Origin: Pseudonocardia oroxyli
GTDB lineage: Bacteria; Actinomycetota; Actinomycetes; Mycobacteriales; Pseudonocardiaceae
Assembly (NCBI RefSeq): GCF_900102195.1
Contig: NZ_FNBE01000003.1
Coordinates: 124,001-188,000 of the forward strand
Reading direction: 5' to 3'
DNA: 64,000 nt
The notes under the pieces were generated by a model. The model made no database searches. It had not been told where the DNA came from and saw nothing but the letters and a program-made list of their open reading frames with translations. The number at the start of each line of letters is the position of its first letter. Position 1 is the first letter of the stretch. Both the position numbers and the translations under genes were made by a program. Below, piece by piece: positions 1 to 4,192 of the stretch.

Positions 1-788
1 ATCACCCTCCCCCGGACCCGGCTCGGACCACCCGTCAGGTGATCCATGTCTCGGGAGCGCGGCGGTCGGGAGACGACCGCCCCGCCCCTCAGATGTGGAT
101 CATGCCCATGCCCATGCTCATGCCCGACGTCCCGCCGGCCAGGTGATCCGCAGCTCGGGCGCCAGGCGGTCGACTCCCGACCACCCCGCTCCTCAGACGT
201 GGATCACCGTCCGCGAACCTGGAACCGACCCGCCCGCCCCATGATCCGCTCTTCGGGAGCGGGACGGTCGACTTCCGGCCACTCCGCTCCCCAGACGTGG
301 ATCACCGTCCGCGGACCCGGCACGGACCCGCCCGTCAGGTGATCCATGTCTCGGGAGCGGAGTGGCCGGAAGACGACCACCCCGCTCCTCAGACGTGGAT
401 CATGCTGTGCGGACCTGACCCGGACCCGCCCGTCACATGATCCATAGCCCGGGAGCGCGGCGGTCGACTCCCGACCGTCCCACTCCTGAGCAGTGGATCA
501 CACTCGCTGGGCGAGCCGCGGACCGCTCGGCACGTGATCCGTCGCTCGGGAGCGGGACGGTCGGCATCCGGCCGCTCCACTCCTCAGATGTGGATCACGC
601 CCTGCGCCACGTCCCGCCGACCCGCCCGCCACGTGATCCGCCGTTCGGGAGCCGAAGGGTCGCAGGTCGACCTGGACGCTCCCGAACCGTGGATCACGGA
701 GCGGGGCGGAGAAGGCTCGTGCCGATGATCCACTCTCCGGGAGGGGTGCGGTCGGGATGCGACCGTCGTGCTTCCTCCTCGCGGATCT
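1..788. repeat. Array A: eight 63-bp palindromic units in a ~98-bp tandem period
   Basis: Eight units, each 63 bp, start at 40, 144, 242, 340, 438, 535, 634 and 726. Each opens with TGATCC and closes with TGGATCA; the last has decayed to CGGATCT. Inside each are an arm with GGGAGCGG-like sequence and GGTCG, a short loop, and the complementary CGACC and CCGCTCC, so every unit can fold as a long hairpin. The spacers (mostly 34-36 bp) resemble one another and often end in GACCCGCCCGTCA, so the whole ~98 bp has been tandemly duplicated. Bases 1-4 are the end of a further unit, so the array continues to the left. No convincing gene lies here; the open frames are by-products of the repeat. Confidence 0.93.
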
Positions 789-793
789 CGTGA

Positions 794-809
794 GTTCGCG
801 ATCGCGAAC
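794..809. promoter_or_regulatory. 16-bp perfect palindrome upstream of the DUF559 gene
   Basis: GTTCGCGATCGCGAAC is a perfect inverted repeat 52 bp before the ATG at 862, just after the last unit of array A. Related half sites CGGATC (782) and GGATCCG (811) lie on either side. The downstream protein has an N-terminal helix-turn-helix of the AbiEi antitoxin type, and such proteins commonly repress their own promoter through inverted repeats, so an autoregulatory operator is a reasonable inference. No clear -35/-10 pair was recognised. Confidence 0.4.
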
Positions 810-861
810 GGGATCCGCGGAATCGACACGAGGGTGAGGTGGGGCGGCGAGGCTGCCCCTC

Positions 862-1746
862 ATGGCCTCCACCCCACTCGCCCGTCTCCTCACCCGTCAG
901 GACGGACTGATCACCCTCGCGCAGGCAGCCGAGCTCGGGCTCTCACGCCGGTCCGTCGGACGGCGCGTCGAGGCGGGCGTGTGGACCCGGGTCGCGCCGC
1001 GCGTCCATCTCGTGCACGGCGACCGCTCGGCTCCCGCGGTCCGTGTCCGGACCGCCTCGCTCTGGAGCGACGGCGTGGTGTCCGGCATGGCGGCGGCGTG
1101 GGTTCACGATCTCGCCGACCGCCCCGGCCCACTCGTCGACGTGACCGTGCCCCGACGGCGTCGCCCCGGCCGCGTCGAGGGTGTGCGGGTGCGGCGTCGG
1201 GACCTCGATCCACTCGACGTCACGCGGCGCCGGGGTATGGCCGTACTCGCCGTCCCGCTCGCGGTGCTGGAGGTCGCGACCGCCCTCCCGGACGGCGACA
1301 CGTTGCTGGACAGCGCGCTGCGGCGTCGGGTCCGCTTCGACGACCTGCTCTCCGCGTACCGACGCGCGATGGGGTCGACCGGGTCGGCCCGGATGCGCGA
1401 GCTCGTGGTCGCCGCGGCCGACCGCGCGGACTCGCGGCTGGAGCGCATGCTGTTCCAGCTGATGCGTGCGGCGGGCATCGGCGGGTGGACCCGTAACGTC
1501 CCCTTCCGCGGCTGGTTCCTCGACATCGCGTTCCTCGAGGCGCGGCTCGTGATCGAGACCGACGGCTGGGCATGGCACGTCGAGCCCGATCGCTTCCAGG
1601 AGGACCGCCGCAAGCAGAACGCCCTGGTCGACGCGGGCTGGCGGATCCTGCGCTTCACCTGGAAGGACGTCACCACCGAGCCCGGCGCGGTCGTCGCTCG
1701 GATCCGCCGTGCCCTCGCCACACCCCCCACGCAGGCCGCTGGATGA
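862..1746 (+). CDS. AbiEi-type HTH + DUF559 (Vsr/PD-(D/E)XK-like nuclease fold) protein
   Basis: 294 aa. Residues about 5-55 match the N-terminal winged helix found in type IV antitoxins of the AbiEi group. Residues about 190-285 form a DUF559 domain related to Vsr-type endonucleases: E194, then LDIAF with D221, IETDG with E232, the FQEDRRKQN block (245-253), and GWRILRFTW (259-267). D221 and E232 are the expected metal ligands. Such proteins are common, often orphan, genes in actinobacteria and their role is unknown. This one stands alone between two arrays of 63-bp palindromes, and its TGA stop (1744-1746) is the first three bases of the first unit of array B. No partner toxin gene is adjacent. 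The ATG at 862 is the earliest start that keeps the whole HTH domain; no strong Shine-Dalgarno precedes it. Confidence 0.82.
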   Translation: MASTPLARLLTRQDGLITLAQAAELGLSRRSVGRRVEAGVWTRVAPRVHLVHGDRSAPAVRVRTASLWSDGVVSGMAAAWVHDLADRPGPLVDVTVPRRRRPGRVEGVRVRRRDLDPLDVTRRRGMAVLAVPLAVLEVATALPDGDTLLDSALRRRVRFDDLLSAYRRAMGSTGSARMRELVVAAADRADSRLERMLFQLMRAAGIGGWTRNVPFRGWFLDIAFLEARLVIETDGWAWHVEPDRFQEDRRKQNALVDAGWRILRFTWKDVTTEPGAVVARIRRALATPPTQAAG

Positions 1747-2462
1747 TCCACCGTCCGGGCGCAACGCGGTCGTGGTTGGACCGCGCTCCTCCCGAAGAGT
1801 GGATCACCTAACCCCGGCCGAGCGAACCCGCTCGTTGATCCGAGATCGGGGAGCAGGTCGGTCGCTCAGCGACCGCTCTGCTCCCCACGGGTGGATCATC
1901 GCGGCACCTGGGCACCCGGAGCCGAACCGGGGCATGATCCGCAATCCCGGAGCACAGCGGTCGCCACACGACCGCACCACTCCTCGCAGGTGGATCATGC
2001 AATGCGGCCGTGCAGGGCAGCCCGCGCGATCAGTGACGGGGCGCAGCGGGCCTGTAGGCGACCACCCCTCACGAGTGGATCATCACAGGCTGCCAACCCC
2101 ACCGGCCGCGACCAGCGGATGATCCATTATCGGGGAGCCGAGCGGCCTGTCAGCGACCCGGCCACTCCAGACGAGTGGATCACTAAACCCGGCTGTGCGG
2201 GCCTGCGCGCTGATCAACGTCTGGGGAGCAGGGAGGTCGATCGGCGACCGCCCCACTCCCCACGAGTGGATCATCACAGGCTACTGGCCGCACGGCCGCG
2301 ACCAGTGCAGATCCACCATCGGGGAGCGGAGCAGTCTGTCAGCGACCGCCTCACTCCCCACAAGTGGATCACCACGAGCTCGCTGCCACCGGACGCACAT
2401 GATCCACGAACGAGGAGCGGAGCGGTCGAGAGCCGACCGCCTCGCTCCCCGCCCGCGGATCA
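1744..2462. repeat. Array B: eight more palindromic units with alternating spacer lengths
   Basis: Units start at 1744, 1836, 1935, about 2027, 2120, 2211, 2309 and 2400. All are 63 bp except the fourth, a degraded 56-bp copy. They share the TGATCC...TGGATCA ends and inner stem of array A, but the loop usually carries CAGCGACC. Spacers alternate between about 29 bp and 35-37 bp. The long spacers at 2083 and 2274 share TCACAGGCT and GGCCGCGACCAG, giving a higher-order period of about 190 bp. The unit at 1836 keeps pairing with GAGCAG opposite CTGCTC where other units have GAGCGG opposite CCGCTC, a paired change that supports a folded form. Confidence 0.93.
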
Positions 2463-2490
2463 TCGCCGGGCGGACCGTCCCCGGACAAGC

Positions 2491-2550
2491 CGTCACCGAG
2501 CAGACCGTCACCGAGCAGACCGTCACCGAGCAGACCGTCACCAGGCAGAC
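2491..2550. repeat. 15-bp tandem repeat, four copies
   Basis: CGTCACCGAGCAGAC is repeated head to tail at 2491, 2506 and 2521, with a variant at 2536. It lies between array B and the 3' end of the hydrolase gene. No credible gene covers it, and replication slippage is the simplest origin. Confidence 0.9.
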
Positions 2551-2586
2551 CGCTACCCGGCGAACCGCCGCCCGGGCCGACCGTTG

Positions 2587-3945
2587 CTAGGAGGCCAGCC
2601 AGTCGAGGGCTACGGCGGCGGTCCAGGACTGCATCGCCGAACCGAGGGCTTCGCCGGTCACGGGGTGGAAGTACTCCGCGAAGCCGACGTGCCGCAGCGA
2701 GTCCAGGCTCGCCTCACGCAGGGCGTCCGCGCGGACGAGGTCGCCGCCGTCTCGCAGGCCGCGCCAGTAGAGCCAGTTGACGATCGGCCAGACCGGGCCG
2801 CGCCAGTAGTTGCGCGGGTCGAAGCACTCCTCCAGCGGGCTGGTGCTCGGGACCATGGCCCAGCGCAGGTCCGGGTGGCCGGCGAAGGCCTCGGAGTCGA
2901 GGTTCTTCAGGGCCCGGTCGCGGTCGCCGCTCTCGGCGTCGAGCAGCGGGCAGAGGCCCGCGAAGGTGCGGATCTCGACCGGGGTGCCGGTGCCCAGGTC
3001 CAGGTCGTAGGCCAGGCCGGTCTCGGTGTCCACGGTGGACGCGATGCCGGATCGCCCGCGGGCGATCCAGGACTCGATCTCGGCGCGGGCCGAGGAGGTG
3101 GCACCCACCGCGTCCGCCAGCCCGAGCAGCGCCTGGTTGGCCATGACGAGCACGGACGTCAGGAACACGTCCTTGACCAGGAAGGGGTAGGAGCGGTGGA
3201 TCGCGGCGTCGTCGTAGCGGTGGCGCTTGAGCAGCTCGAGCAGCCAGAGGAAGCGGTCGTACGCGTCGTTCGACGGGCGCTGGCCCGCGTCCGCCACGTG
3301 GGACAGGTCCCGGCGGACGTAGGCGGGCACGTCCCCGACCTCGAGCCGCTCCAGCACCGCGTCCCATCGCGGGGAGTTGTCGATGCCCTCCCACGGGTGG
3401 TACGTCGTGACGAGCCCGGAGCCGGAGGGGTCGCGGTGCTCGGCCAGGTAGCGGTGCCAGGCCATCAGCTTCGGGAACAGGGTGCGGATCTCCGCGCGGA
3501 CGTCCGCCTCGGCCTCGGTCCCGGCGGCGACCTCCCAGATCCGCGCCACGGCGATCGCGTGCACGGGCGGCTGGCAGATCCCGCTGGTCTCGGCGACGCC
3601 GACCGGCGCGTCCGGGGACACCTCGACCGCCCACCGGGCGGGGTCCGGGAAGTACGAGTCCGGGCCCGCGAGCGGGTTGAACACGATCTGCGGGACCATG
3701 CCGTTCGCCCACTGGGCCTCGAACAGCCGCTGCTGCTCGGTCATCGCCCGGCGCACGTCGACCTGCGCCCACCCGATCGCGACGAAGGCGCTGTCCCAGC
3801 TCCACTGGTGCGGGTACAGCAGCGGGGCGGCCTTGGTCCAGCCGCCCATGTCGTTGGCGCGCAACACGTCCGCGGCGAGGTCGCCGAGGGCGGTGTCCGT
3901 GAGGGTGGTTCCGTGCGACGTGGGGTGGCCGGTCTCCGTACTCAC
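2587..3945 (-). CDS. ggH: GH63-family glucosylglycerate/mannosylglycerate hydrolase
   Basis: 452 aa (alpha/alpha)6-barrel enzyme resembling mycobacterial glucosylglycerate hydrolase and bacterial mannosylglycerate hydrolases, which split glycosylglycerate solutes into sugar and glycerate. Visible family blocks are YPHQWSWDSAF near residue 45, the WEGIDNSPRWD block near 215 and DPRNYWRGPVWPIVNWLYW near 370. GTG start at 3945, preceded on the coding strand by AAGGAAG. No signal peptide, so cytoplasmic. It lies 247 bp downstream of a sugar ABC importer on the same strand, which suggests that the importer brings in the substrate. The family is clear; the exact sugar is not. Confidence 0.82.
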   Translation of the reverse strand: MSTETGHPTSHGTTLTDTALGDLAADVLRANDMGGWTKAAPLLYPHQWSWDSAFVAIGWAQVDVRRAMTEQQRLFEAQWANGMVPQIVFNPLAGPDSYFPDPARWAVEVSPDAPVGVAETSGICQPPVHAIAVARIWEVAAGTEAEADVRAEIRTLFPKLMAWHRYLAEHRDPSGSGLVTTYHPWEGIDNSPRWDAVLERLEVGDVPAYVRRDLSHVADAGQRPSNDAYDRFLWLLELLKRHRYDDAAIHRSYPFLVKDVFLTSVLVMANQALLGLADAVGATSSARAEIESWIARGRSGIASTVDTETGLAYDLDLGTGTPVEIRTFAGLCPLLDAESGDRDRALKNLDSEAFAGHPDLRWAMVPSTSPLEECFDPRNYWRGPVWPIVNWLYWRGLRDGGDLVRADALREASLDSLRHVGFAEYFHPVTGEALGSAMQSWTAAVALDWLAS

Positions 3946-4192
3946 GGGATGCGCTTCCTTCCGACGTTTGGCAACGCCCTATCGGTTCACGAGGTACTTA
4001 ACTCCACAGTAACAACGAGTGAGTTCGATCTCAACCACCCGCTGCGAGCTTCATCGGGATCGACGAAGGCCCGTTACGCCGGACAGCCGAGTCACCGGAC
4101 GGACCGGGACCGACCGGACCGGGGTCGGCACGGCGGGATGGACCCGCCGCCCGGCCGACCGCGCTCCACAGCAGACAGAGCGATCACGCAGA
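3946..4192. other. Spacer between the importer operon and the hydrolase gene
   Basis: A 247-bp gap with no gene. The part next to the hydrolase is less GC-rich than its surroundings (3961-4060) and is a plausible separate promoter for it on the minus strand. The rest holds short GACCGG-type direct repeats. No terminator hairpin stood out. Confidence 0.4.

Follow-up and report, generated by a model that had tools for sequence, protein, structure and literature searches.

In REP/RAYT systems an enzyme gene lies between two palindromes, further copies of which are scattered between genes. RAYT genes have been reported to lie between two REPs in every case and to co-vary with them (PMC2817692), and REPs to be elements of 20-40 bp that are tagged with GTAG or CGTC at one end (PMC3733652). 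Excerpts on two other groups of proteins are relevant to the locus described here. The antitoxin AbiEi binds two 23-bp inverted repeats that are 3 bp apart, and Rv2827c, which is related to AbiEi, binds repeats that are 13 bp apart (PMC7319586). By our own sum, the excerpted sites of AbiEi and Rv2827c span 49 and 59 bp, which is near the length of the 50- and 63-bp units described below. The EDxHD enzyme I-Bth0305I is stated, in the part of the source used here, to dimerise on a target of nearly 60 bp (PMC3943268).

Pfam names the nuclease part of the widespread family studied here a protein of unknown function. We found no link between DUF559 or AbiEi-like genes and palindromes in the literature that our search covered, with most subscription papers and bioRxiv lying outside its coverage. 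Here we report that in actinomycete bacteria many genes of the family are paired with palindromes of their own and that, in the genomes we checked, copies of such palindromes also occur at scattered sites, and we describe the predicted fold and the conserved nuclease residues of the protein.

A solitary gene between two arrays of palindromic units

The window is the 64,000-nucleotide stretch of DNA from Pseudonocardia oroxyli that was analysed. At 862..1746 on its + strand we found a solitary gene encoding a protein of 294 aa, characterised by Pfam, an AlphaFold2 model and Foldseek. Sixteen palindromic units surround the gene between 40 and 2462, eight upstream and eight downstream; 15 of these are exactly 63 bp, as the earlier note had described, and one is degenerate. 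To the left, directly beyond the window's edge, there is a 17th unit at G000:C17:123942. Unit searches placed the upstream units at 40..102, 144..206, 242..304, 340..402, 438..500, 535..597, 634..696 and 726..788, the last being closest to the gene and having a diverged last base. Downstream, the opening TGA of the unit at 1744..1806 is the stop codon of the gene itself. The same searches placed further 63-bp units at 1836..1898, 1935..1997, 2120..2182, 2211..2273, 2309..2371 (first base diverged) and 2400..2462 (the final unit), and a weak one-strand model match (E 3.9e-4) marks the degenerate, shortened unit of 56 bp at 2027..2082.

The units are nearly symmetric and start with TGATC. Their consensus consists of the outer ends TGATCCAC, arms GGGAG/CTCCC and a core GGTCG-N5-CGACC. 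The unit matrix found zero units in five shuffles of the window, and no Rfam match to the unit was obtained up to E 0.1 in window positions 1-4000. Since covariation of the stem pairs in the own-genome units did not go beyond that of shuffles, we do not claim a selected hairpin. Immediately after the last unit, at 2463-2552, there are short direct repeats with a 15-nt spacing.

The protein matches two Pfam models, AbiEi_4 at residues 6-45 and DUF559/MTES_1575 at residues 189-285. Its AlphaFold2 model has a mean pLDDT of 93, and the best fold match of this model in Foldseek is the AbiEi antitoxin 6y8q (E 2.6e-6). The best nuclease match of the C-terminal part is 3r3p, the catalytic domain of I-Bth0305I (4.9e-4); Vsr 1cw0 was also matched (0.066), as were some mitoribosomal proteins at 9e-4 and weaker with low TM-scores. 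The predicted architecture is thus an AbiEi-like winged-helix N-terminus, an AbiEi-like middle and a Vsr/EDxHD-type nuclease C-terminus, in agreement with the AbiEi-like domain joined to a Vsr-fold domain that had been read from the sequence before.

Residues E194, D221, E232, D234, H239 and D248 are conserved in 32-34 of 35 family sequences. We take E194, D221, H239 and D248 to be the residues of the EDxHD motif, and with the match to 3r3p the protein has the Vsr-like fold together with the conserved E, D, H and D of EDxHD-type homing endonucleases. In three pairs of family genes dN/dS was 0.15-0.22, which suggests that the family protein is under constraint. The likeness to I-Bth0305I lies in the nuclease part, and the dimer on a target of nearly 60 bp is a feature of I-Bth0305I. 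That enzyme is covered in a review on the homing endonucleases of group I introns (PMC3943268), whereas the gene reported here is solitary, lies between palindromes and encodes an AbiEi-like N-terminus.

The likeness to AbiEi antitoxins lies in the fold match to 6y8q, in a PADLOC AbiEi model that covers residues 11-155, and in the paired inverted repeats of similar span that AbiEi binds according to the excerpted source. In contrast to type IV AbiE systems, no AbiEii toxin (nucleotidyltransferase) partner was found among the tested neighbours of the window gene, a nuclease domain has been added, and the repeats lie to either side of the gene as well as across the genome. The neighbours are a convergent glycoside hydrolase gene beyond the downstream array and, upstream, a small Glyoxalase-family gene and an aconitase gene. 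Assignment of the protein to a known defence system was rejected; PADLOC returned AbiEi models and, weakly on the nuclease part, PDC-S37, Hhe and homing endonuclease. A search of the genome contig collection found no named relatives. Database records matching the protein comprise 1 phage and 11 plasmid records, of which one, a Tsukamurella tyrosinosolvens plasmid, matches most of the protein and carries two flanks that match each other with a score of 38; a phage or plasmid origin of the window gene was rejected.

Matched palindromes around genes of the family

A de novo palindrome scan of 39 homolog loci found many of the genes between two near-identical palindromes, the sequence of which differed from gene to gene. 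We then scored pairs by aligning the left flank of a gene against its right flank, with the 99th percentile of mismatched pairs as the cut-off. Matched flanking repeats above this cut-off were present at 92 of 144 homolog loci, a set drawn for the most part by best E-value rather than at random: 7/11 in the own genome, 36/61 in the genus and 49/72 in the class and order. The remaining 52 of the 144 had no matched pair above the cut-off. Of the 92 matched pairs 72 are palindromic, compared with 17 of 432 random 90-nt windows, the length of which was not matched to the repeats compared.

Several loci were left out of the count of 144. L005, L006, L008-L010, L020, L147 and L148 are duplicates of another locus; L011 and L023 encode a 1768-aa multi-domain protein; L157 and L167 lie at contig edges; at L233 the bracketed ORF is outside the family; and at L385 no gene was found. 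At L197, L202 and L213 the matched repeats around the homologs run to about 190-250 nt, longer than a single palindrome.

A score over 35 was reached by 88 of the 144 homologs and by 4 of 462 control genes (Fisher p 1.5e-61). The control set had originally yielded 8 of 466 genes passing this score, four of which were family members and were removed. Two of the four that remained adjoin a family member and share its palindrome, and the own-genome controls still contain a few low-scoring family members. Similarly, in an earlier run on 257 own-genome genes the five highest flank scores all belonged to family genes. A named sample, consisting mostly of Mycobacterium, had only 9 of 43 genes scoring over 35; its palindromes look to have diverged further, and mismatched pairs match at times too. 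Of 60 genomes sampled from the class, 55 have matches to the family profile itself, with a maximum of 21 in one genome.

The sequence of the palindrome goes with the gene. Among 33 genes picked for having a pair, the left and right copies of one gene matched with a median score of 68, only 1 of 60 palindrome pairs from different genes of one genome exceeded 35, and close homologs in different genomes had common palindromes. At 27 loci the similarity of the palindromes followed the identity of the proteins (Mantel r 0.60, 0/2000 permutations), a correlation to which the shared descent of gene and flanks contributes a part. The outer ends TGATC...GATCA recur across many palindrome families and the inner stems differ.

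In these respects the family resembles REP/RAYT: the enzyme gene lies between two palindromes, at the window gene as at the 92 matched loci, and enzyme and palindrome vary together, with different palindromes within one genome. The earlier note had proposed, more broadly, a nuclease kept with its own palindromes in the manner of REP and RAYT, and this idea is borne out by the many homologs that lie between matched, gene-specific palindromes.

Scattered palindromes in the source genome and its relatives

The pattern TGATCC-N45..57-GGATCA has 69 matches per strand in the source genome, some of them plainly chance occurrences inside other sequence, and the reversed pattern has 0. A genome search with the unit model gave at least 143 strand matches (150 candidates scored). 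In 598 kb of loci, taken mostly around units, we counted 70 units in 35 clusters; 26 of these clusters are single units, and the longest arrays hold up to nine units in a row. Two of the 35 clusters are those beside the window gene; the other 33 lie about 20 kb or more from the listed homologs or on other contigs, the list including only part of the 18 own-genome matches to the family profile. No window-type units were found around other own-genome homologs in ten stretches of 16-19 kb, but several of these homologs are bracketed by a different palindrome pair of their own. The genome search that the earlier note had called for thus recovered scattered units, but its literal claim, that the unit clusters around DUF559 genes, did not hold at the other homologs; taken literally, the ten homolog stretches lacking a window-type unit are one of the outcomes which that note had named as speaking against it.

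With genes called by a simple script, 13 of 31 unit-bearing gaps are convergent, compared with 37 of 224 unit-less gaps (p 0.003), and 1 of 31 is divergent, compared with 75 of 224 (p 0.0002). Three unit clusters lie inside called ORFs, and in several cases the adjoining gene uses the TGA of a unit as its stop codon. The placement of the units is REP-like. A short target-site duplication of the kind left by an insertion sequence or MITE did not stand out: among the 70 units exact duplications numbered three of 2 nt, one each of 3, 4 and 5 nt, and none of 6-9 nt.

Two arrays differ in their setting. At L125 6310-6960 (G000:C17:248309-248959) a regular array of seven units, with spacings of 81 and 132 nt, lies inside a called 1429-aa ORF. 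The sole exception to the avoidance of divergent gaps is a five-unit array at L025 8977-9400 (G000:C17:58976-59399), which no listed family gene adjoins.

At least four scattered gene-palindrome families are present in the source genome, and others in Jiangella mangrovi. We followed the palindromes of three other homologs of the source genome. The most scattered, that of the homolog at C30:493075, recurs at 14 other sites within the 598 kb; its protein has no Pfam match and is without the glutamate at position 232 (E232). The palindrome of the C8 homolog has several further sites, partly in arrays, and that of the C11 homolog only two in the source genome. A protein match of 100% led us to take G098 as Jiangella mangrovi; in this genome a fixed-end pattern found 73 palindromes, mostly of 50 nt, and the reversed control found 0. 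We compared 49 listed palindromes of G098, of which six belong to bracketing pairs and 43 are dispersed. Five bracketing pairs were used, of which four enclose family genes and one encloses a different ORF; with a cut of 70% that has no null model, 26 of the 43 dispersed units are at least 70% like one of these pairs and 17 fall below 70% to any. The scattering of copies between genes, with about 70 in the own genome and 73 in G098, is again shared with REP/RAYT, the paralog on C11 with its two further sites being the sparse case.

Window-type units also occur in congeners. G001 has 117 strand matches and G014 has 46, and in both genomes some units directly adjoin homologs. G002 has nine strand matches, and none of the three homologs examined there carries the window-type unit; the prediction of this unit type at two further G002 homologs failed. 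Under stricter filters, 34 of 41 genomes contained no window-type units.

Proposed mechanism, alternatives, and sites with and without the gene

We lean slightly towards reading the window as one of several gene-palindrome families in the genome, the protein of which is predicted to bind its own palindrome and likely to cut it, which would spread palindromes. The AbiEi-like/Vsr-like protein would bind its palindrome as a dimer through the winged-helix part. We infer the dimer from the repeat spans of the AbiEi and Rv2827c sites and from the dimer of I-Bth0305I on nearly 60 bp, set against units of 50 and 63 bp. The nuclease part would likely cut in or beside the palindrome, and repair of the cut could copy palindromes, and now and then the gene, into new places.

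For a wider claim we see the balance as even: that this is a second, independently evolved REP-like system, in which AbiEi/EDxHD nucleases of most actinomycete genomes each keep and spread private palindromes of 50-63 bp, several such pairs coexisting in one genome without crossing. We call the system new because the enzyme, the DNA-binding part and the palindromes are all unlike those of RAYT and REP, and its arrangement appears convergent with REP/RAYT but built on an unrelated nuclease. RAYT is an IS200/IS605-type tyrosine (HUH) transposase, whereas the protein here is AbiEi-like with a DUF559/Vsr/EDxHD-type part. The palindromes here are nearly symmetric dyads of 50-63 bp that start with TGATC and are without the GTAG or CGTC head given for REPs in the excerpted source. 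If many family genes do keep their own palindromes, both the genes and a large class of scattered repeats would be accounted for. Many natural combinations of a protein with a DNA site of 50-63 bp would then be available for tests of recognition, and the REP/RAYT arrangement would appear to have originated repeatedly, from unrelated enzymes.

Alternatively, the palindromes may be operators of the AbiEi type through which the protein only represses itself, with scattered copies that spread passively or titrate the protein and a nuclease that acts elsewhere, for example on invading DNA. AbiEi is the best fold match of the window protein, and both AbiEi and Rv2827c are described, in the portion of the source used, as repressing their own promoters via paired inverted repeats of similar span (PMC7319586). 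However, a second matched copy is located downstream of the gene, and the scattered units avoid the divergent, promoter-bearing gaps (1/31 against 75/224 of the unit-less gaps). We consider this alternative unlikely.

One site in G098 bears on a different explanation. At L233 1533-2501 two identical palindromes enclose a 322-aa ORF, which has no Pfam or PADLOC match. The neighbouring gene ends with the 13 nt that precede the left palindrome, and these are repeated with one change before the right copy. The congener G080 lacks the ORF, and there the two flank matches have one palindrome as their overlap; six more congeners were inspected at this gap, and the palindrome of this site is absent from them. 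From this site it would seem that a gene can insert at a palindrome and duplicate it in the process, the ORF in this example not being recognisably a member of the family. The ORF belongs to a hypothetical family of 188 proteins at E up to 0.001 and shows, by eye, a PD-(D/E)XK-like motif. In G220, at L299 2160-2272, the gap that holds the G098 pair contains, by eye, a palindrome of a different family.

The G098 site is what would be expected if the gene were cargo or a passenger and the palindromes were landing sites after genes, duplicated on insertion and moved by other enzymes, and the rarity of the divergent orientation among unit-bearing gaps fits this too. However, the palindrome sequence follows the clade of the gene and not the genome, and matched pairs are rare at ordinary genes (4/462), so that we regard a passenger role as quite improbable. 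A role of the palindromes as ordinary transcription terminators flanking each gene is very improbable: they are G+C-rich dyads that often follow genes and are more frequent in convergent gaps (13/31 against 37/224), but the terminators of one gene need not be alike in sequence or occur in arrays of as many as nine, and no T-run follows the units in the window.

Two sites come from Mycobacterium-type genomes. In G189 the family gene is absent and the left palindrome plus 21 nt is retained; because of this remnant the site looks like a deletion of the gene, and clean excision was rejected. In G114 the match begins inside the left palindrome and continues up to the outer end of its right counterpart, with the flanks unmatched, as if the cassette were located elsewhere in that genome.
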